Virus record (IMG/VR): IMGVR_UViG_3300025652_000533
Span: 1 to 24,331 of that record
Reading direction: 5' to 3' (one strand)
From: a virus
DNA: 24,331 bases
In this document: one piece after another, positions 274 to 16,369 of the stretch
Numbering within the stretch: position 1 is the first letter of the stretch
Layout of the letters: each line of letters begins with the position of its first letter
Translations under genes and position numbers: made by a program
The notes under the pieces: model-generated
The model's database searches: none
What the model saw: the letters and a program-made list of their open reading frames with translations, nothing else
What the model was told of the DNA's origin: nothing

Positions 274-390
274 TTACCTACCTTTTACAAGTTTAGTCAG
301 TGTCTTTGCTTGTTTTGCGTGCATTCTTGATGCTTTTTTTAATGCTGTCGCAACTTTTTTTACTTTTCTAACTTTAGATTTGGACTTCAT
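274..390 (-). CDS. Very small Lys/Arg-rich protein (38 aa)
   Basis: ATG at 390 to TAA at 274, 38 residues starting MKSKSKVRKVKKVATALKKA. About a third of the residues are Lys or Arg, and the spacing allows an amphipathic helix. The start overlaps the stop of the three-TM holin gene by four bases (ATGA), and the next gene starts one base after its stop, so the reading frame fits the operon exactly. It could be a DNA-binding or cationic helical peptide; no family is recognised. The operon fit, not homology, is the reason to call it a gene. Confidence 0.6.
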   Translation of the reverse strand: MKSKSKVRKVKKVATALKKASRMHAKQAKTLTKLVKGR

Positions 391-782
391 TTTGTCAACC
401 CCTTTTGCTTTTCATAAGTTCTGAGACCACCTAATCCTAACATACCCATCAACACAGTCATCAATGAACCCATGTCAAAAGTAGGTAACTCAGGTATAGC
501 AACTCCGATATAAGCACACAAGAATATTGTTATTGGTGCTAATACAAAATGCCAACACAGTGCTACACCACAGGTCCAACCAATAAAAGGTCTCCACCCA
601 GCAACAAAGATAGACTTATGCTGTGCTTCTGCCTTGTTTATCTCTAGCTGTCCTTTAGCTAACTCCTGGGCATGATTCTCTGCCATTGTTGCCACCTCAT
701 GTGCCAACTTATTCTTCATGTCTTTGTCTTCTATAAACTTACCTAGTAAGTTGCTTACCGGTCCTATTAACGCTGTTAACAT
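387..782 (-). CDS. Three-TM holin of gene-transfer-agent type
   Basis: 131 residues. The first 55 are amphipathic and charged; hydrophobic segments follow at roughly residues 64-80, 82-96 and 104-120, and the protein ends LGLGGLRTYEKQKG. The GWRPFIGW motif before the first segment and the LRTYEKxKG ending are characteristic of the family known as 3TM holin for gene-transfer-agent release (GTA_holin_3TM). Its job would be to open the inner membrane at lysis. The start follows an AAGGAG site and is coupled to the previous gene by TAATG. No endolysin is encoded in the window, so the partner is missing from view. Confidence 0.8.
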   Translation of the reverse strand: MLTALIGPVSNLLGKFIEDKDMKNKLAHEVATMAENHAQELAKGQLEINKAEAQHKSIFVAGWRPFIGWTCGVALCWHFVLAPITIFLCAYIGVAIPELPTFDMGSLMTVLMGMLGLGGLRTYEKQKGLTK

Positions 783-2290: not shown

Positions 2291-5200
2291 TTATTCTCCT
2301 TTTAAAGTTGATATTTCAGATTGTAACGCTGTTATTTGTGCAGATAATTCTTGTACTGCTTTAACTAGATTTGTTATTAATTTTGCAGGTGCAAATTCTA
2401 ATTTATCTGGGTTTTCATCAGAAACTAATTTTTCATCTTCAAGTGCTTTTATACCCTTAATCGCAGTTGCAACTTCTTGTGCTATGAACCCTTGCCTTAA
2501 TCCAGAATTTGCTACTTCATTGTCATAATTAGCAGTAATTTTTGAGCCATCAGGTGTGCCATCATCATACCAATCTCGTCTATCCCAATGAAATGTTACT
2601 GGTCTTAAAGAATTTATTAGTGCTAATCCTGCTTCATTAGGTAAATCCTCAATATTGGTTTTATCCCTTTGGTCTGATAAAGCAGATATACTTGTATCAT
2701 TACAACGTAAATTCGTTATATCAGCATTTCCAAGTGTGAATGAATTATTAGTATTTGAAGCTGGTGTCGCAGATTCAAACCCAATACAAGTATTTTGACT
2801 TCCATCTACTAAAACTTTACCAGCTTCATACCCAATTAATGTATTTTTCGCACCAGTAGTCAATACTGCACCAGTATCTCTACCCACTGCTGTATTTCTT
2901 TCCCCAGTAGTAACATTATACAAAGACTGAATTCCAATAGATGTAGAATCATATGTTGAAGTAGCATTGTATAAGGCTTCATAACCAAATGCTGAATTAG
3001 CATTACCAGTACCTGTTCTAAGAGCTTCGCTTCCTACTGCTGTATTTCTTTGACCAGTATGAGATATCATACACTGATAACCAACTGCTGTGTTGCTTGA
3101 TGTTGTGGTGTTTGAAAGTAAAGCACTCAATCCAACTGCTGTGTTGTTAATTCCTGTAGTATTTGCTTGTAGAGCCTGTCTACCCAATGCCACATGATTA
3201 CCACCAGTAGTATTTGCATCTAATGCACTTACACCCATACAAATACTGTCGTTACCTGTTGTATTTGCTGACATACAAGCTGTACCTATTGCTACATTAT
3301 TTGCTCCTGTAGTATTTGCAAGTAATGCACCTTTACCTACTGCTGTATTGTTATTTGCTGTGGTATTTGCTTTAAGTGCCTCTAGACCAAGTGCTGTATT
3401 GTTACTTCCAGTAGTATTTTGGTCTAGTGCTTGTAATCCTATAGCAGTTAAACCTGTACCTGTTGTGTTGCTTCTTGCAGAATACCAACCGACAGCTGTA
3501 TTGTTATGTGCTGCATTTGTATATAAAGCTGAATGTCCAACTGCTGTGTTGCTTGATGTTGTACCATTTATAGCAAGTGCTGCATATCCAATAGCAACAT
3601 TACCAGTTCCTGTTGTATTTGAAAATAATGTGTGAAATCCAAGTGCTGAATTATTGCTTGCTGTAGTGTTTGCTGATAAAGAACCCTTACCAATAGATAC
3701 GTTATTTGCACCAGTAGTATTTGCATCTAATGCTTGATATCCTATCGCTGTGTTGTCTGATGCTGTGGTGTTTGAAAGTAAAGCACTTTGACCCATAGCA
3801 ACATTGCTTGCTCCAGTTGTGTTTTGTCTACCAGAACCATCTCCAACAAACGTATTTCCAATTCCAGTTGTTGTAAGTTTTCCAGAGTCAGTGCCAATAA
3901 ATGTAGATGAATTTCCTGTTGTGTGTGACAATCCTGCATTTTGACCAACAGCAGTCATATTATCCCCTGTGGTATTTGCTTCTAATGCTCTAAAACCAAT
4001 ACCAGTATTGTTACTTCCAGTTGTATTATTTTCTAATGCTTGTAAACCAAGTGCAGAGTTAGCAGTTCCACTTGTATTAAGCTCTAGTGCTTCATAACCT
4101 ACAGCAGTATTGTTAGAGCCTGTGTTTGAATATAATGCACTTAGACCTATAGCTACATTACTTTCCCCAGTAACATTTAATCGTAGTGCATTTTGCCCAA
4201 CGGCTGTATTGTTAGATGCAGTTGTATTACTCTTTAAGGCAGACAATCCAATAGCAGTATTTGAAGCACCTGTAGTATTTGATTCTAATGAATAGTTTCC
4301 AAATGCTACGTTAGGACTACCAGTAGTATTGGCAGTAAGACTGTTATACCCAACTGCTGTATTTTCTGATGCTGTGGTGTTAGCTGAAAGAGAAAGATAA
4401 CCTATTGCAGTATTATTAGCACCAGTAGTATTTGCATCTAAAGCATAAGTACCCAAAACAGAATTATTAGCACCAGTAGTAATGCTGTAACCTGCATTAA
4501 ATCCAACAGCTACGTTATTAGATGCTGTAGTATTTGAATACAATGAAGCTCCACCTATTGCCGTAAGACTTGAACCTGAAGTATTTGTAGTTAGTGACTG
4601 ATTTCCAATAGCCACGTTATTATTTGCTCCACTTATACTATCAAGTGCAGTATCACCCAAAGCTACATTACCACTGCCAGTAGGATAATTACCATCTAGC
4701 TTGATTGTGCCACCATCTACTGAGAGGTTACTATTGATTACCAATGCACCTGTCATTGTATCGCCAGTAGTCTGCACAAAGCCAGAGCTATCTATAGCTG
4801 CATCTTGCCAGGCAGAACCAGTGTATACTTTTAAAGTATTACTTGATGTATTAAAATACAAATCACCAGCATTTAAAGCATCACCATCATTATCAACAGA
4901 TGGATCAGAACTCTTAGAACCTAAGTATGTATCGTCAAAAGTATCAGCACTAGCTGCTGCTGCTGCTGCACTAGCTGCTGCATTGGTTTCTGATGTTGAA
5001 GCATTGCTTGCAGATGTAGCTGCATTTGTCGCACTAGTAGCAGCTTCGGAAGCCTTTGTAGTAGCTGTTGTTGCTGATGTAGATGCTTCTGTAGCTTTTG
5101 TCGTAGCAGTCGTAGCTGAAGTCGCTGCATTTGATGCTGACGTACTGGCTTCACTTGCTTTTGTGGTTGCTGTTGTAGCTGAACTAGCAGCACTCGTTGC

Positions 5201-6091
5201 AGATGTGCTTGCTTCAGATGCTTTGGTAGATGCAGTTGAAGCAGATGCAGCTGCATTTGTCTCAGATGTACTTGCTTCGCTAGCCTTTGTTGATGCTGTG
5301 CTTGCACTTGTCGCAGCATTTGTTTCGCTTGTAGCTGCGTTAGTTGCAGAAGTTGCTGCTTCGCTTGCTTTCGTTGTAGCAGTCGCAGCACTATTTGCAG
5401 CGTTAGTTGCACTTGTAGCTGCTGTAACAGCATCTATTAGTAATTCAAAGTGATCTGTATCTGTTAGACTGTCACCAACAACTGCGTCTGCAACACATAT
5501 ATACACGTTGTTTAGCTGTGCAGAAGTCGTTGACTTGATAATATCTCTTACAACATATGCTTCTGTTGTTACTGTTGCGTCTGTGCCTTTGTATGTACCT
5601 AGCTCTTGTGTAACAGATAATTCACCACTACCATCAAAAGCAAGGACCTTGTTTGCTCTGTCTGTTGCACCTACTGTAAATTCAGTAGATGTCATAGTAT
5701 TTGTTCGTGATAGTTTGAGGCTTCTGTCTACTTCTTCTTGCTGTTGCTGGTCAATAAAAGTCAACCTATCTAGTGCATCTTCGTGTGTAGCTGCTGGGAA
5801 AGGATCGTTTGCCACATAGTCTGTAGACTGAGTTTGTGCCATGTTACGTCTAATAACGACAGTAACACCACTAGCAGGTGCAGTTCCAAACACAACATTA
5901 CCACCATTAGCATTACCAGCATTTGTAACTGTGTAGTTTGTTGTTAGACTCTGTACTGTTTCTACACCAGTAGCCGATCTTAGTATGACTGTAAGGTCTG
6001 CATCAGCAAATATCTTGAAAGCATATGCAAATGTAGTGGTACTTCCGTTGCCACTGTAACTGTTTTTTGTGGTTGTGCTACTAACTGTCAT
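2291..6091 (-). CDS. Tail fibre: gp17-type anchor, coiled coil, 17-aa repeat array, S74 chaperone
   Basis: 1266 residues forming the host-recognition fibre, probably a trimer. Residues 1 to about 150 match the T7 gp17 N-terminal tail-attachment domain (TFAYAFKIFADADLTVILR, later FPAATHEDALDRLTF). Residues about 221-383 are Ala/Ser/Thr heptads. A short linker with GDLYFNTSSNTLKVYTG and TTGDTMTGAL follows. Residues about 468-1127 hold about 39 copies of a 17-residue NTTGxNNTAxGxxAL repeat, like YadA/Hia head repeats. Residues 1139-1266 are a peptidase S74 intramolecular chaperone with SDQRDKTNI (Ser1139, Lys1144) and a C-terminal helix. T7 gp17 is about half this length. A GAGGT site and a possible promoter lie just upstream. 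The receptor is unknown. Confidence 0.93.
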   Translation of the reverse strand: MTVSSTTTKNSYSGNGSTTTFAYAFKIFADADLTVILRSATGVETVQSLTTNYTVTNAGNANGGNVVFGTAPASGVTVVIRRNMAQTQSTDYVANDPFPAATHEDALDRLTFIDQQQQEEVDRSLKLSRTNTMTSTEFTVGATDRANKVLAFDGSGELSVTQELGTYKGTDATVTTEAYVVRDIIKSTTSAQLNNVYICVADAVVGDSLTDTDHFELLIDAVTAATSATNAANSAATATTKASEAATSATNAATSETNAATSASTASTKASEASTSETNAAASASTASTKASEASTSATSAASSATTATTKASEASTSASNAATSATTATTKATEASTSATTATTKASEAATSATNAATSASNASTSETNAAASAAAAAASADTFDDTYLGSKSSDPSVDNDGDALNAGDLYFNTSSNTLKVYTGSAWQDAAIDSSGFVQTTGDTMTGALVINSNLSVDGGTIKLDGNYPTGSGNVALGDTALDSISGANNNVAIGNQSLTTNTSGSSLTAIGGASLYSNTTASNNVAVGFNAGYSITTGANNSVLGTYALDANTTGANNTAIGYLSLSANTTASENTAVGYNSLTANTTGSPNVAFGNYSLESNTTGASNTAIGLSALKSNTTASNNTAVGQNALRLNVTGESNVAIGLSALYSNTGSNNTAVGYEALELNTSGTANSALGLQALENNTTGSNNTGIGFRALEANTTGDNMTAVGQNAGLSHTTGNSSTFIGTDSGKLTTTGIGNTFVGDGSGRQNTTGASNVAMGQSALLSNTTASDNTAIGYQALDANTTGANNVSIGKGSLSANTTASNNSALGFHTLFSNTTGTGNVAIGYAALAINGTTSSNTAVGHSALYTNAAHNNTAVGWYSARSNTTGTGLTAIGLQALDQNTTGSNNTALGLEALKANTTANNNTAVGKGALLANTTGANNVAIGTACMSANTTGNDSICMGVSALDANTTGGNHVALGRQALQANTTGINNTAVGLSALLSNTTTSSNTAVGYQCMISHTGQRNTAVGSEALRTGTGNANSAFGYEALYNATSTYDSTSIGIQSLYNVTTGERNTAVGRDTGAVLTTGAKNTLIGYEAGKVLVDGSQNTCIGFESATPASNTNNSFTLGNADITNLRCNDTSISALSDQRDKTNIEDLPNEAGLALINSLRPVTFHWDRRDWYDDGTPDGSKITANYDNEVANSGLRQGFIAQEVATAIKGIKALEDEKLVSDENPDKLEFAPAKLITNLVKAVQELSAQITALQSEISTLKGE
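2711..4690 (-). repeat. About 39 tandem 51-bp units in the tail fibre gene
   Basis: In-frame 51-bp units encode 17-residue repeats of consensus NTT[GA]xxNTA[IV]GxxALxx. Four units (residue sequences starting NTGSNNTAVG, NAAHNNTAVG, HTGQRNTAVG and GTGNANSAFG) lack one residue. Most units have diverged in DNA, but some pairs stay almost identical: 3101-3127 and 3761-3787 differ at a single base over 27. The motif resembles the beta-roll head repeats of trimeric autotransporter adhesins (hep_Hag/YadA head). Confidence 0.95.
4945..5431 (-). repeat. 21-bp heptad repeats encoding an Ala/Ser/Thr coiled coil
   Basis: About 22 consecutive heptads of the form TKASEAx / TSATNAx / TSETNAx, residues about 221-383 of the fibre. 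Alanine occupies the a/d-type positions, as in the stalk repeats of lambda-Stf-like tail fibres. Glu and Lys recur mainly in the TKASEA type, which returns every two to four heptads. The low-complexity 21-bp period leaves long open frames in other frames on both strands, which are not genes. Confidence 0.9.
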
Positions 6092-8739: not shown

Positions 8740-10433
8740 TAGCTTTTACTCCTAATAACGCATTGGGCACCTACTTGTGTCGCAGTATCATAAGATACTC
8801 TTGCTTTTTCTGCTGCATCATCTGCTTCTTTCATAGCTGCCTTTGCCTTTTGTAAAGTTTGTTTTGCAACATCTGGTAAAGATTCTATTATTTCAGGATC
8901 CTCTAACTCAAGCATCATAGCTTCATTTTCTGCTTCAATATCCTCTGCTTTTATTTCACTTAAGTCAGCAGTATCTGCATCCATCTTATCAATTTTGTCT
9001 GCATACTCATCTAATCTACCCAACTTATCTTGGCTTATACTAGCTGAATCTCTTTGATCGTTTATTTGCTGTGGTGTTAATTCTGCACCCTCTTGTGTAG
9101 TTACAGTTTCTTCTGTTGTGTTTGTATCTTTTGCACCAGGTTCGGTAGTTTGCTTTGTTATAGGATCTTTTGGTCTTACAACTTTCTTACCTTTCAATCT
9201 ATCCAAAGCAATATCTAAGGCTTTTAAACTTGTTTTTTTGCTTGCCACTTTAGCTTCATCTACAACAATTCTTTCTTTTTTAAATATTCCTCCTTTTATT
9301 TTGGTACCTGCTTCTAATTCTTTAAGCTGATTTTCTACAATAAACTTTGCATCTTCTAATGACTTGATGGCTTGTTTTTTGTTCATACCTCCAGGTTGAC
9401 CTACTCGTGTTAAATCATCTACAGTTGCAGACATATCATCTAAACCAACTTCGCTTAAATCAATTAAAAAGTCTTCATCATATGGAGATTTGCTTACAAC
9501 ATCACTCTGATCCACAACCTTTTCAGTACCATCAGTATCTTTTATAGTAATGATGCCCTCATCATCAACCCTAACCTTCTCTACAACTCTTGGCTCACCA
9601 TCAGAATTGTAAACTGTAATTGTGTCAGTTTGTTCAGCTTCTGGCTTTACTGTTGTTGTTTCTGCTTCATCAACAATACGATCAACCTGTACTGGCTGGT
9701 CAGTTAAAACTTGACCTATTGATGTTTGCTCTGCCCTAGCTCTTGTTTGTGGTGGCGTTCTGTTTATCCTGTCTGATATTTTACCAAAACCTACATGAAG
9801 ACCACCACCCAATGCACTACCTACGGCAACATTTAAAAAGCTATCCATTAAAGTGTAGCTTTCATCTTGCTCGGCAGCAGCAGCACCTATGATTAATGGC
9901 TCTAAAACAGCAGCACCAACAGCACCATCTACAGCACCTTTGACTGCCCTCGATCCACTTTTGCCCATCTTAGCTGCCATTGATGCAACTCTAGCTGGAC
10001 CAACGGCAGGTATAAACGCACTGGCTATATTCAATGGATCAAGGAAACTACCAGCTATAGCCACGCCAAACTGAGCAGCACCTAATCCAAATCCACCTTT
10101 AGACCTTTGTAATGTTATTTGAAACTCACGCCTTCTATCAACTCTTTCGGCTAAGAGTTGTGCTAATCCTTCTTTGATGCCATTATCGTCAACCTGTATG
10201 CCATCTCTAAAAAACTCACTTTCTTTCCAATCATCTTTAGATATTACTTTACCAGTTTGACCTAATCCTGTGTATTGTTCAGCAAGTCTATTTACAGCAT
10301 TTAATGGATTATAATACAGCGTTTCTTGAAATGTGGCACCTAATACATCTAAAGTACCAGCTTTGGCAATATCGTAATATTGATTTGTTAAATTAGGATC
10401 ATCACCCTGTTCTGGGATATACATTCCTACCAT
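8739..10433 (-). CDS. Internal virion (ejected) protein, first half of a split gp16 equivalent
   Basis: 564 residues. The N-terminal 110 residues are soluble-type (NPLNAVNRLAEQYTGLGQTG). Residues about 112-215 are rich in Gly/Ala with several hydrophobic stretches (GLGAAQFGVAIAGSFLDPLN, then AAVLEPLIIGAAAA and VAVGSALGGGLHVGFG), fitting insertion into a membrane after ejection. The rest is acidic and helical, ending in a coiled-coil-like region. T7 gp16 (about 1300 residues, one chain) carries an N-terminal lytic transglycosylase; no such motif is visible here. TAATG couples it to the gp15-like gene upstream and to the second half downstream. Confidence 0.75.
   Translation of the reverse strand: MVGMYIPEQGDDPNLTNQYYDIAKAGTLDVLGATFQETLYYNPLNAVNRLAEQYTGLGQTGKVISKDDWKESEFFRDGIQVDDNGIKEGLAQLLAERVDRRREFQITLQRSKGGFGLGAAQFGVAIAGSFLDPLNIASAFIPAVGPARVASMAAKMGKSGSRAVKGAVDGAVGAAVLEPLIIGAAAAEQDESYTLMDSFLNVAVGSALGGGLHVGFGKISDRINRTPPQTRARAEQTSIGQVLTDQPVQVDRIVDEAETTTVKPEAEQTDTITVYNSDGEPRVVEKVRVDDEGIITIKDTDGTEKVVDQSDVVSKSPYDEDFLIDLSEVGLDDMSATVDDLTRVGQPGGMNKKQAIKSLEDAKFIVENQLKELEAGTKIKGGIFKKERIVVDEAKVASKKTSLKALDIALDRLKGKKVVRPKDPITKQTTEPGAKDTNTTEETVTTQEGAELTPQQINDQRDSASISQDKLGRLDEYADKIDKMDADTADLSEIKAEDIEAENEAMMLELEDPEIIESLPDVAKQTLQKAKAAMKEADDAAEKARVSYDTATQVGAQCVIRSKS
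8748..8753 (-). promoter_or_regulatory. Ribosome-binding site that separates the two gp16-like genes
   Basis: AGGAGT on the minus strand lies 8 bases before the ATG at 8739 and inside the last codons of the upstream gene. Its quality argues that the downstream 866-residue protein is made separately by re-initiation, not by frameshifting into one polyprotein. Confidence 0.75.
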
Positions 10434-13033
10434 TAGAATAATTGTCCTGTAGTTTTAAAATGATTTATAAGTGCTTCTTTCTTTGCTGAAATTGTGCCTT
10501 GACCATCTTGAATTTCTTTGTATTTATCAAGCGTTGTTGTTAAACTATCAAAATTTACAGAAACAAAAGGTGCCATACCACCTATGTCTCCTGGCTCCAT
10601 TGCTGAATCTTTTCTTTTAACCATGTTACCTAACTGATCTACCATATAAACGCCACTGTTATCGGTTGTGGTTCTCCATGTACCTTTTTTAATAAGGTCA
10701 CTATAGTATGTGTTTCGCCATTGTTCTTTAGCACTTTCATCTAAACCTAATGGTGCTGGTGGTGCTTCTATGATTTCTTTTAAATAATCAATATTATTAG
10801 CTATTGAAGTCTCTAATATTTTTGACATAGGCTCTGCAACAGAATCATATTCTATACCAAACCTAACAGTAGTGTTATTGACTTGATTTGCTAAATTAAA
10901 ATGATTTCCAATAACCTCATTAAAAGCTCTTTTAGCTGCATCTGCTGGTTCCATGTTATCAATCATCTTGTAATAATTCGCTGTATTTACAATTATGTCT
11001 CTCATTGACATTACATGACCTGCCCTGCCTTTTGTAAAACCACCACCTAAAACATCATCAAAACCACCACCTAAAACAGTTTGACTATAACTTGACATTT
11101 CTGTTGCAACAGATTCCATAATAGTTGTTCTGTCATCTTTAGGAATATCACTTTTATATCTCTTAACTGTTTCTGGTGCATTAGCTAATATAGCACCTTT
11201 AATTCTTACATCATTTGGATATGCTAAAAGTAAGTTATCAATAGGTGTTATTGTGCCCGAAGATATTAAATGCCTTAAAACTTTGTTCTGATTTGCACCA
11301 TAACTATTTAAAAAATCTTTACCAACCTGTGCTTTTTCTGCGTAATTCAATCCTGGTGCCTTAAAAGCAGCTTCAAACGCATCTAATTCAGCATTACTTG
11401 TTACCCTTATGTCAAGCTCTGGTATATCCATTTGTTTTTGCAAACTAATCATTTTATCTACTGTGATTTCTTCTTCAGGATTTTGGCTCTTGTAATACCC
11501 TATAAAATCTTTTTTTATTTCTGCATCTCTAACAGAAACTTGACTAGCAAAAGAGGTATATATTAACTCATCTTCTTTTTTACCTGATCTTTGCCAATTT
11601 AATTTTAGCTCATTTAACTTATCTGTAGTTTGAGTTTTACTGCTAAACTTTATTGATTGAAATGAAGATGATGCTTTTATTTCTGCATTTATAGCAAGCT
11701 GCCATTCGTTAGCTTTTTGATATTCTTCTGCTAAAACCAAAGCATTGTATACGCCATCTTTTTTTGCCATGTTCTCTTGACTGATAACGCCGTCAACCTT
11801 TAAGTCAGAAACAATATTATCTTTTACCTGCATAGCATTAGCTAATTCTCTTTTAGCTTTATCTTTGATTTCTGTATTAATTATTTGTTTCATTTGCTCC
11901 CTTGAAGCAAAATTCTCAATCTCAGGTCTGTACCTGTCTTTACCTGTGGCATCTATACTATCTCTAATTTGTGTCAACTCAGACAAAGACTTACCTTGAA
12001 CCTCTGAACTAAGATTTACTTTTATGTCATTGATTTCTTTGGATAATAATTCGTTTCTTCTAGTTTGTGCTTTTGCTTTTATGGTTTCTAAAATGTTTAC
12101 AGGCAATTTTTTTGGATTAACATTTATTTGAACGCCTTTATCATTGGTAAAACTAATTAAATCTGATTTGTTAAGTCTTTGTATTTCTTTTTCAAATTCT
12201 ACATCATTTGTCAAAGCCTTGTCATTACTAAGAAATATGTCTCTTACAATAGCATCAGAGTACTCGCCATGGACTCTCTTTTCCTGTGCATCTAACAACG
12301 CATTTAATTTAAGGCTTGTGTCAGGCATAAACATTTCATTTTTAAGATTATCTTTTAATTCTTGTATTTGTTCAATACTTTGAGCATTACCTGACAAAGT
12401 GGTGTAATCATTTATTTTTATAGCATTAAAAGCCTGGTCAACTGTTTTGTAATCTAAGTTTGCAGTTTCACCATTTTCGTTGGCAACAGTAATTGTTTCT
12501 CGTAACTCATCTTCCATTGCATTACGCAAAGGATTACCAATAGGTAATTTATTTATTTCTATTATAAGATTGTTACTGGCGTTTTTGTGAAGTGTTGAAT
12601 TATAATCTCTACCTCTGTCAAAAGCTAAATTTTTACCAACTTGCATCTTAGCACCTTGATGCAAAACCATTTGCGTTTTGATAGATTTTAACTGGTTAGG
12701 CGTTAAGTTCTTTTTTGTATAGTTTCTTTCAAACTTTTTATTATAATCTTTTAATTCATTCTCAGCTTCTAACGTGCTTGTAGCTTTACTATTTCTAATT
12801 AAATCGTTCACTTCATTATTGTACTGTGTCTTTAGTTCAGCAAATGCAGCCTTGGTATTTTCTTCCTTTTCTTTCATACCAAATTCGTAAGCTATATTCC
12901 CAGCCTTTTTAAACAAATCAGCAGTCGCTAGTTGTGCACCAACAAATGCTTGTGTGTCTGCTCTTACACCAATCTGTGTAGTAGGTGCTTTTACTCTTTG
13001 CCCTAGTTGGTCATATGTAGGTATCTTTGGCAT
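10433..13033 (-). CDS. Internal virion protein, gp15-like
   Basis: 866 residues, almost entirely predicted helical and charged with no signal peptide or membrane segment. The N-terminus has MPKIPTYDQLGQRVKAPTTQ, a phrase typical of podovirus internal core proteins, followed by long coiled regions. T7 gp15 is shorter (about 750 residues). In T7, gp14, gp15 and gp16 form the internal core and are ejected to build the trans-envelope channel and DNA motor; order and size support the same role. A small tandem duplication gives VLGGGFDDVLGGGF. The start has GGGATAAG upstream; the stop overlaps the next ATG. Confidence 0.8.
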   Translation of the reverse strand: MPKIPTYDQLGQRVKAPTTQIGVRADTQAFVGAQLATADLFKKAGNIAYEFGMKEKEENTKAAFAELKTQYNNEVNDLIRNSKATSTLEAENELKDYNKKFERNYTKKNLTPNQLKSIKTQMVLHQGAKMQVGKNLAFDRGRDYNSTLHKNASNNLIIEINKLPIGNPLRNAMEDELRETITVANENGETANLDYKTVDQAFNAIKINDYTTLSGNAQSIEQIQELKDNLKNEMFMPDTSLKLNALLDAQEKRVHGEYSDAIVRDIFLSNDKALTNDVEFEKEIQRLNKSDLISFTNDKGVQINVNPKKLPVNILETIKAKAQTRRNELLSKEINDIKVNLSSEVQGKSLSELTQIRDSIDATGKDRYRPEIENFASREQMKQIINTEIKDKAKRELANAMQVKDNIVSDLKVDGVISQENMAKKDGVYNALVLAEEYQKANEWQLAINAEIKASSSFQSIKFSSKTQTTDKLNELKLNWQRSGKKEDELIYTSFASQVSVRDAEIKKDFIGYYKSQNPEEEITVDKMISLQKQMDIPELDIRVTSNAELDAFEAAFKAPGLNYAEKAQVGKDFLNSYGANQNKVLRHLISSGTITPIDNLLLAYPNDVRIKGAILANAPETVKRYKSDIPKDDRTTIMESVATEMSSYSQTVLGGGFDDVLGGGFTKGRAGHVMSMRDIIVNTANYYKMIDNMEPADAAKRAFNEVIGNHFNLANQVNNTTVRFGIEYDSVAEPMSKILETSIANNIDYLKEIIEAPPAPLGLDESAKEQWRNTYYSDLIKKGTWRTTTDNSGVYMVDQLGNMVKRKDSAMEPGDIGGMAPFVSVNFDSLTTTLDKYKEIQDGQGTISAKKEALINHFKTTGQLF
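11036..11077 (-). repeat. Short tandem duplication in the gp15-like gene
   Basis: An 18-base stretch (gttttaggtggtggtttt on the coding strand) occurs twice, at 11060-11077 and 11036-11053, with a 24-base period. It stays in frame and encodes VLGGGFDD followed by VLGGGF. Confidence 0.9.
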
Positions 13034-13546: not shown

Positions 13547-13968
13547 TACGCAACCCTCGCAAAACGATAATAATCTGATCCATCAGGACCAAACTTCTTC
13601 ATCAAACCTTCGTTCTCAAAACCCAACCACTCAACATATCTTATCGCTTGCTTGTCACCTGTGTGAACACTAGCTTGAATACGTTGTAAATCGTTGTCTT
13701 CTTGCACATGATCTAATAATAAACTAGAATACTTAGCTGCTGAAAAGGGCATCTTGTAGGCGTGCTTTGACATTACAAACCAGGCTTCTCCGACATTCTG
13801 CCATAATCCATATACACCACCAATCATAAATACCTTACTTTCTAGCAATGCTGTGTATGCACTTAAACACGTTTCTTTCATCATAGCTGCTTTTGAGCTT
13901 TCTGGAAAATGAAAATTTGTTTCAATCATATCTAAGTCTTCTTTATCAAACTTTTTAAACTTAAGCAT
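13546..13968 (-). CDS. gp13-like protein with GNAT acetyltransferase-type fold
   Basis: 140 residues from the ATG at 13968; a TTG in the same frame at 13971 is an alternative start. The C-terminal half reads RIQASVHTGDKQAIRYVEWL then GFENEGLMKKFGPDG, the usual last strands and helix of a GNAT domain. In T7-like phages the protein in this slot (gp13, DUF2833-type) is needed for internal-core assembly and is found in virions or assembly intermediates. I see no convincing acetyl-CoA loop of the RGxGxG type, so catalysis is uncertain. It overlaps the end of tail tubular protein B and is coupled to gp14 by TAATG. Confidence 0.75.
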   Translation of the reverse strand: MLKFKKFDKEDLDMIETNFHFPESSKAAMMKETCLSAYTALLESKVFMIGGVYGLWQNVGEAWFVMSKHAYKMPFSAAKYSSLLLDHVQEDNDLQRIQASVHTGDKQAIRYVEWLGFENEGLMKKFGPDGSDYYRFARVA

Positions 13969-16369
13969 CAAACGTATTAGACCTTCTCATTATAGCTAAT
14001 ATTGTCATAGGCAATGGCTGTGTTTGCCTTATAACAATCTTTGCATCATTGTCATAGCCTGATGGAAAAGATATTTCTTTATCCCCAGTAAACAATGGAA
14101 CGGCTTCATCCATACTCATACTACTATCTCTAAATGGTAACCTGTCAAGGTTTGCTGTATCAGGACCTAACTCTGCACCAACTGTTTGAAAGAATCTAGC
14201 TGTAACACCATGTATTCTCTTTATCTTACCTTGTGCAATGCCATCTTCTGCACCTGCTTCCATACGCAATGTTTCTAATGATGAAGTATAACCATAACCA
14301 ACATGAACCTTAGATGAGCTTCTATCTAATGTAATTGTGCCATTGCTGACTGTTTTATCAGCGTGTGCAGCACCATCTGCTAAAATGGTTACTGTTTCAC
14401 CCTCAAGGTGGTTTAGGCTTGTAATGGTCGTTGTAGCCGATCCACTGTATGTCAACCCACTATCTACAAAGAAAGCATCCTCGACATCATCATTAAAATA
14501 TAGTGACTTTAAATAAACAATATGTCTTACTGTGGCACTGTTTATAGTTCTTTTAACACTAAGATACACCTGGTCTTCTGCACCACTAGGTATAGCTGTA
14601 ATACTTTCTACTAGACCACTGCCACCTAAACTATGTTCATGCCATCCTACTGTGGCGTTTGCCCTGTCATATGTTAGTCCTATTAGCCTTCCATCATTAT
14701 GTACAAACCACAACAATAACTCTGGCTCTTGCTGCCATACCATGTCAGTCAAGCCACCTCTAGCCAAATGATCTGCAAGCACAGTCAAATCAACACCCAG
14801 CAATCCATCTGTGTCTAAATCAAAGGTTATCTCTTTTACCTTTTCTGCACCCTTCTGTATGAGTATGGTACTGTTACCTGCTCTCAAAGGCTTGATGTTA
14901 CCTGTACCAAAAGTTGTTTCTCGTAGCACGTTAACATTTGTAGGTGTTACCGGCTCTGATCCTGCACCACCTGACAAAGTAAACTCAGCACTTGTAGTCA
15001 ATAACTGCAAGAATCTAGCTGGTAATAAATGCTTTATGACGTTAACCTGATCTGATGCTATGGTTACATTAATCGCTGCATCATCTTCTGTTCCAGGTGT
15101 ATGGTTCTCAAAATCAGCAGATACACTACCAAAGATAGTCTGTGGCTGATCTGTGGTTCCAGCAAAGTATAATCTTTCTTCGTAAAAACCTATAGCTCTT
15201 GGAAATCCTGTGGTTGAGCTAAAACTTCCCAATGACCATTTTGTTGTAGCATTGCTCGATCCCACAACATTATGTGGTAATACTGATATGCCACCATCAT
15301 CTTCTTTAACTGTAGCTGTTACAACTGTTGAACTTGTGAACCCTGTTATCTTTACATAACCTGTATCGTCATGCCTGTACTCCCAATCAATCGCACCATA
15401 TGTTTCTGTACCTGATGTATGTACTGGTGGCGTGTTACCTGATGTTTGCGTTGATCCAGTAACCTGCTTGTAAACGTGACCATTGAATCTTACAAATACA
15501 TTATTAGCGTAACTTGTACTTGCTGCCCATTCATCATAAGTAACCTCTAATACCTCACGAAACCTAATTAATCTTCCAACATCTGTACTAACAAACAAGG
15601 CTGCACTTGCTGTAATCGTTACAGAACCTGTATCTGCTGAAGCGTATAATGTTGTTGCTGTTATGTTTTCATCAAGGTAAGGACCATCTGTAAAATCAAT
15701 ATCCGTCAATGTCCATGATGTATGACTTGTTCTTGTCAACTTTGCTGGTGCATGATCTTGTTGTGCAAGGAATAACACATCTGCTGATTGTGCATAATTA
15801 ATCGTAGATAGCTGTGCTGTCGTGTAAGTCGTTGTAATTTCTACTATTTTACCGACTGTGCCACCACTTGTATATGTGGTAAACGCAGAGCTATTGATAC
15901 CACTTAACTGAAATGTATTTGTTGTCTTTCCTGCAACTGTAAACTCTCTGTTATTTATCTCTGTCATACCAACAACACCAGTAATAAACACTCTGTCACC
16001 ATTATTCAAACCATGTGAGTTAGATGTTACTACTGCTGGATTAGCCTTTGTTATGGCTGTTATTGCTGTCGTAGCTTCTGTAACTAAGCCACCATCTTTA
16101 AATATACGAATATAATTATTACCAAACTCCAATACATAGGCTTGTGTATCACTAAACTCAAAGTTGATTAGCCTTACCTGACCACCATCCTTTGTTGTTC
16201 CTGCGTAATATGTACCTGGTCTGCGTGTTGTACCTCCCTGTGGAAATACAATCATGTTGCTTAAATCTTTTACAGCTTCATTATATTTTTGTAAGTCTAT
16301 TCTACCTTCTAGCCTAGGAGATATTTCACCTGCCCTGAAGTTGGTGATAATAGACGATACTCTAGCCAT
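13961..16369 (-). CDS. Tail tubular protein B (nozzle), gp12-like
   Basis: 802 residues, close to T7 gp12 (794). The N-terminus is diagnostic: ITNFRAGEISPRLEGRIDLQ followed by KYNEAVKDLSNMIVFPQGGT and TRRPGTYYAG. The body is beta-rich, with DDTGYVKITGFTSSTVV-like strands and a WQQEPELLLWFVHNDGRLIG segment shared with many podovirus nozzles. It forms the hexameric nozzle beneath the gp11 ring and carries the fibres. It starts one base after the stop of tail tubular protein A. Confidence 0.92.
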   Translation of the reverse strand: MARVSSIITNFRAGEISPRLEGRIDLQKYNEAVKDLSNMIVFPQGGTTRRPGTYYAGTTKDGGQVRLINFEFSDTQAYVLEFGNNYIRIFKDGGLVTEATTAITAITKANPAVVTSNSHGLNNGDRVFITGVVGMTEINNREFTVAGKTTNTFQLSGINSSAFTTYTSGGTVGKIVEITTTYTTAQLSTINYAQSADVLFLAQQDHAPAKLTRTSHTSWTLTDIDFTDGPYLDENITATTLYASADTGSVTITASAALFVSTDVGRLIRFREVLEVTYDEWAASTSYANNVFVRFNGHVYKQVTGSTQTSGNTPPVHTSGTETYGAIDWEYRHDDTGYVKITGFTSSTVVTATVKEDDGGISVLPHNVVGSSNATTKWSLGSFSSTTGFPRAIGFYEERLYFAGTTDQPQTIFGSVSADFENHTPGTEDDAAINVTIASDQVNVIKHLLPARFLQLLTTSAEFTLSGGAGSEPVTPTNVNVLRETTFGTGNIKPLRAGNSTILIQKGAEKVKEITFDLDTDGLLGVDLTVLADHLARGGLTDMVWQQEPELLLWFVHNDGRLIGLTYDRANATVGWHEHSLGGSGLVESITAIPSGAEDQVYLSVKRTINSATVRHIVYLKSLYFNDDVEDAFFVDSGLTYSGSATTTITSLNHLEGETVTILADGAAHADKTVSNGTITLDRSSSKVHVGYGYTSSLETLRMEAGAEDGIAQGKIKRIHGVTARFFQTVGAELGPDTANLDRLPFRDSSMSMDEAVPLFTGDKEISFPSGYDNDAKIVIRQTQPLPMTILAIMRRSNTFDA

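Follow-up and report, generated by a model that had tools for sequence, protein, structure and literature searches.

Fibres, adhesins and chaperones of related types

Tail fibres of HTVC010P-like pelagiphages were described by Mizuno et al. in 2014 as having a T7-like N-terminus, one of them together with a YadA-like region (3S6L_A), and the text and legend of that paper name repeats and S74 among the fibre domains (PMC3909814, Figure 3). Metagenome recruitment was reduced over the C-terminal/YadA region, and the same authors inferred a role in host recognition (PMC3909814). During experimental host adaptation of cyanophage S-TIM4, a structural protein with a YadA domain was mutated (PMC6224464). 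No match came from searches of the literature for phage fibres with YadA head repeats or beta-rolls, and those on pelagiphage fibres and on YadA in marine phages led to the 2014 paper. In the ocean, HTVC010P-group phages are very abundant, and the way in which they recognize SAR11 cells is poorly known.

Two further systems are relevant here. The head of the trimeric autotransporter adhesin (TAA) BpaC forms a left-handed parallel beta-roll built of layers of 14 residues, with a conserved glycine at position 8 (G@8) and usually a threonine at position 5 (T@5); its array comprises 42 repeats, and TAA loop insertions are placed between position 14 and position 1 (PMC9543794). The chaperone of endosialidase NF (endoNF) is removed by self-cleavage with the dyad S911/K916 (PMC8326128).

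The DNA analysed, below called the window, is a virus record of 24,331 bases. Its fibre resembles the 2014 HTVC010P-like fibre, compared by description, in the phage group and in the combination of a T7-like N-terminus, a YadA-like region and S74, while the unit length, the unit number and recombination of the array were not found described in the accessible text of that paper (PMC3909814). Fibres composed of 17-residue units followed by an S74 motif are also encoded by HTVC111P (32 units), HTVC112P (30), Methylophilales phage Venkman (33), Roseobacter phage CRP-7 (23), and Prochlorococcus phage P-SSM2 (27), but they differ from the window fibre in their N-terminal parts, with 31–43% identity. 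Since the layout was published in 2014 and the module of array and S74 also occurs in isolated phages, the fibre is a further example of an already described type and not a new kind; the window provides a clean case of an adhesin-head-like tip that comes with a probably cleavable chaperone of its own. It is worth adding that in HTVC111P (L162, 5720–6601) and HTVC112P (L163, 5573–6454) a putative glycosyl transferase gene lies directly after the array fibre.

Genome context and domain layout of the fibre

The window has the gene order and the proteins of a short-tailed phage (large terminase, head-tail adaptor, major head protein, tail tubular proteins, internal virion proteins, fibre, and holin), and the preliminary description had correctly taken it for a podovirus. 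The nearest named relatives are the HTVC010P-group pelagiphages (72–74% over the capsid gene region), and the source is likely to be an HTVC010P-like pelagiphage-type podovirus, its host assigned via these relatives. The holin (387–782, minus strand) belongs to the gene-transfer-agent 3TM family (PF11351, E 4e-22). A tail protein encoded at 13961–16369 (minus strand) falls into PHROG 376 and matches Pfam E1_FCCH (E 5e-12), with a weak, sub-threshold match to CBM_5_12.

The fibre gene, an open reading frame at 2291–6091 on the minus strand, as are all the fibre features below, codes for 1266 amino acids and matches PHROG tail and virion structural families. Residues 1–130 (5702–6091) form a putative tail-attachment domain of the T7-like fibre/tailspike kind; in phmmer they match the solved tailspike Dpo31/Dpo36 (28lx, 8ck1; E 1e-18), and the N-terminus matches PHROG tail families 13893 and 1640, while PF03906, the T7-like tail fibre N-terminal domain, had no Pfam match in the fibre at E<=1. 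Residues 220–385 (4937–5434) comprise Ala/Ser/Thr-rich stalk repeats of the KASEASTSATNAATS type, recognizable in the sequence and in PHROG tail fibre families, which cover residues 220–451; this stalk is common to the Lederberg and HTVC203P fibres. A linker discerned in the sequence (residues 386–474, 4670–4936) joins the stalk to the array of 17-residue units (residues 475–1116, 2744–4669). The array is followed by a degenerate last unit with a segment reaching the predicted cleavage point (residues 1117–1138, 2678–2743; from sequence and alignment), and by the Peptidase_S74, or intramolecular chaperone, domain with a C-terminal helix (residues 1139–1266, 2294–2677; from Pfam and Foldseek). 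The C-terminal outer-membrane anchor of TAAs is absent, the fibre C-terminus being the S74 domain and the helix. A 250-codon open frame antisense to the stalk (4701–5453, plus strand) was set aside as a gene, as it is probably a by-product of the repetitive Ala/Ser/Thr codons.

The 17-residue array

Anchors of the NTAVG type are spaced 17 residues apart from residue 475 to 1116 (4669–2744), which gives 38 clear units, i.e. those passing a position-specific score. Together with the degenerate terminal unit SFTLG at residue 1117 the array has about 39 units, the number given in the preliminary description, with the consensus N-T-A-[IV]-G-x-x-A-L-x-x-N-T-T-G-x-N. At a lag of 17 residues the identity reaches 0.39; the highest value in 1000 shuffles was 0.15.

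Four units, already noticed earlier, have only 16 residues; they start at residues 645 (4112–4159), 848 (3503–3550), 1000 (3047–3094) and 1016 (2999–3046), and each lacks its residue in the inter-layer turn. Among 90 distinct 16-residue units from relatives the missing residue maps, with about two exceptions, to positions 10–17, centred on 13–14, and in 84 longer units almost all insertions lie beyond position 9, the anchor used for finding units biasing the mapping of missing residues against positions 1–5. At three of the four (residues 645, 1000 and 1016) the AlphaFold2 models continue at high confidence and without a drop. The register shifts or kinks previously suggested for these units are thus unsupported, as the missing residue sits in the turn between layers and the models run through.

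At the DNA level, the units reported as nearly identical share 24 exact bases (3104–3127 and 3764–3787), and the longest exact repeat in the array is 26 bases (3081–3106 and 3537–3562), compared with a mean of 18 after synonymous-codon shuffling (p = 0.002). Six exact 24-mer pairs were observed and 0.014 were expected from the same shuffle. The codons of adjacent units are no more alike than expected (0.453 vs. 0.464), and hence nothing indicates that single units were recently duplicated in tandem.

Predicted fold of the array

The AlphaFold2 model of residues 475–728 (15 units), run with 33 array segments, has a pLDDT of 86.7 and a pTM of 0.85, and in it each unit has a single short, regular strand, located at TAV. 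In VIA-align it is closest to BpaC (Z 17.6, rmsd 2.4, 211 aligned), followed by CbpF (Z 16.1–16.7), a curli subunit (16.0), YdcK (14.3) and YadA (13.4), with the left-handed helices of acyltransferases below these (Z 13.0 and lower, in the range of 12–13). A second model, of residues 949–1266, reaches a pLDDT of about 92–98 over its array part (949–1119), which agrees with the first in its matches (CbpF Z 15.7, YadA Z 15.5). Foldseek likewise returned TAA adhesins as the best matches of the array model, at weak E-values (0.08 or worse). Pfam YadA_head had no match at E<=1 in the fibre or in the 33 array segments, and PDB sequence searches with the fibre or the array gave no TAA match, so the link to TAAs rests on the predicted folds; given the weak Foldseek E-values and the alignment of acyltransferase helices as well, the class of roll has firmer support than membership does.

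The unit can be mapped onto the TAA numbering, with G15 as G@1, N17 as N@3, T2 as T@5 and G5 as G@8, and it is longer by three residues (NTT), which lie between positions 14 and 1, at the TAA insertion site. The likeness to TAA heads (BpaC, YadA, BoaA, CbpF) therefore comprises the predicted fold, the conserved Gly and Asn/Thr positions, and the site of inter-layer insertions; the fibre differs from them in having 17 residues per layer instead of 14–15, no autotransporter anchor, and an S74 chaperone. The array very probably folds as a left-handed roll of the TAA-head type, as modelled with single chains and with the handedness taken from the BpaC alignment. The adhesin-head fold proposed in the preliminary description gains support from the resemblance of the predicted 15-unit structure to TAA heads, which lead the VIA ranking.

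The S74 chaperone domain

The C-terminal domain, which the preliminary description lacked, matches Peptidase_S74 (PF13884) with an E-value of 4e-10 and 40.2 bits, the curated cut-off being 22. Ser1139 (2675–2677), the predicted cleavage nucleophile, is the counterpart of S911 of endoNF, and Lys1144 (2660–2662), the predicted catalytic lysine, that of K916. Both residues are invariant across 48 aligned sequences, and their spacing of five equals that of S911/K916. The C-terminal model resembles in Foldseek the MyRF ICA (7dc3, probability 1.00) and the endosialidase-type chaperones 3gud (0.94–0.98) and 3gw6 (0.82–0.96), at modest E-values (0.01 to 0.9) and with mixed model confidence in that part. 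A viral structure library gave matches, with E-values down to about 1e-16, to proteins that bear the name of S74 or auto-processing domain proteins. The fibre end is probably a cleavable intramolecular chaperone with a predicted Ser-Lys autocleavage dyad. It shares the Pfam family, fold and Ser-Lys spacing with the S74 chaperones of endoNF, the T5 L-shaped fibre and the MyRF ICA, but is placed behind a beta-roll array and not a triple beta-helix.

Proposed function of the fibre

Taken together with the podoviral source, the models favour, as the likely reading, a host-contacting fibre with a roll tip of the TAA-head type and an S74 chaperone that would be cleaved off. The N-terminal domain would join the fibre to the tail and the Ala/Ser/Thr-rich stalk would hold it outward. 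The 39-unit array, a predicted left-handed parallel beta-roll with one layer per unit, would form a rigid rod some 17 nm long at the distal end (39 layers × 4.3 Å, the rise per layer of BpaC), with its turns as the outer, variable surface that may bind a receptor on the host. The S74 domain would trimerize and fold the chain; cleavage before Ser1139 would then release this domain, and the roll would remain as the mature tip.

The array might instead be a mere length spacer, a shaft, with another protein binding the receptor. Such an arrangement is suggested by the isolated relative Lederberg, in which a 453-residue fibre with the same N-terminus and stalk has no array and is followed by a gene for a C1q-domain protein. 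It is also suggested by L107, where a gene of its own (8826–10676), downstream of a short fibre whose N-terminus is 90% identical, codes for the array and an S74-like end; the array module thus occurs both fused and separate. In the window, however, the array would be the distal end after the predicted cleavage, and no C1q match was found among the scanned genes downstream of the fibre. Moreover, the distal part of the fibre is variable among relatives while the N-terminus is conserved, with different arrays behind N-termini identical in 98% (L086) or 96% (L087, L088, L089). A spacer role is for these reasons rather unlikely, and a host-contacting roll is preferred.

Variation of the array among relatives

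As the preliminary description had foreseen, the array differs in length between relatives: the number of units varies from none to 71 (in L024), and L008, with an upstream protein identical in 98%, has a 552-residue fibre frame devoid of the array. Two contigs over 99.9% identical to the window (L002 and L003) carry the identical 39-unit array. In L088, by contrast, a 660-base block of 13 units (3712–4371, minus strand) is absent in register; in blastn the window pieces 4372–4731 and 3560–3724 adjoin there at 1803–2162 and 2150–2314. The block equals 12 × 51 + 48, made up of twelve units of 51 bases and a single one of 48. On either side of the missing block L088 and the window share about 90% identity, and with both flanks equally diverged this difference is less open to the doubt of a chimera. 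Past the missing block the units of L088 differ, and its S74 domain is only 38% identical to that of the window.

L013 has an array identical to the 39 units of the window and a different N-terminal half, its left part being identical to L088 and its right part to the window. The mosaic junction lies inside a stretch of 127 bases (5112–5238, minus strand; 1020–1146 in L013) identical in all three. A length of 127 bases is a common maximum k-mer of short-read assemblers. As the shared stretch has exactly this length, L013 was dropped as a proof of recombination, a chimeric contig being quite possible, and a switch between L087 and L088 inside the array, preceded by 857 identical bases, has the same weakness.

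It could be supposed that the array has grown unit by unit, through slippage or duplication that still continues, and that its length drifts within strains, and the exact DNA repeats in excess of the synonymous-shuffle null would fit. Nevertheless, the window, L002, L003 and L013 share 39 units, adjacent units have no excess of common codons, and three SPO1-group isolates have 481 residues each, which makes this origin quite improbable. Near-identical contigs keep the unit count and relatives differ by blocks, which points to block recombination between arrays as the source of the variation, with chimeric contigs possible in some cases. The ongoing duplication proposed in the preliminary description is supported in part only: the arrays of near-identical contigs are the same, and the differences resemble an exchange of blocks. 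Tentatively, the array may serve as a platform for in-register recombination: every unit could pair with every other one, the frame and fold being left unbroken, and the distal half would be swapped together with its matching S74 chaperone, changing the length and surface of the tip at a single stroke. With relatives that differ in the tip, a link of the array sequence to host range can be tested.

Likenesses outside the phage relatives

Thr-rich faces are common in ice-binding rolls. That the roll binds ice, a glycan or another general surface and not a specific receptor is highly improbable, as the ice-binding left-handed roll of Lolium perenne (3ult), although aligning with Z 12.0 and 13.5, ranks under the top TAA heads with an alignment limited to 114 residues, and the context of a tail fibre and the S74 domain speak for host contact.

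Arrays of 17-residue units were also found in 68 genome loci, mostly of Bacteroidota, with up to about 120 units; the contigs were scanned with a single sequence, no stretch being conserved enough for a profile. The N-termini of many of these proteins resemble signal peptides by eye, and S74 was present in all six proteins tested. The preliminary description called the window array giant, a term to be taken as relative, next to the 42 repeats of BpaC, the 71 units of L024 and the longest array, that of an Ignavibacteria protein (L173, 3160–11205), which with about 120 units far exceeds the phage arrays seen.
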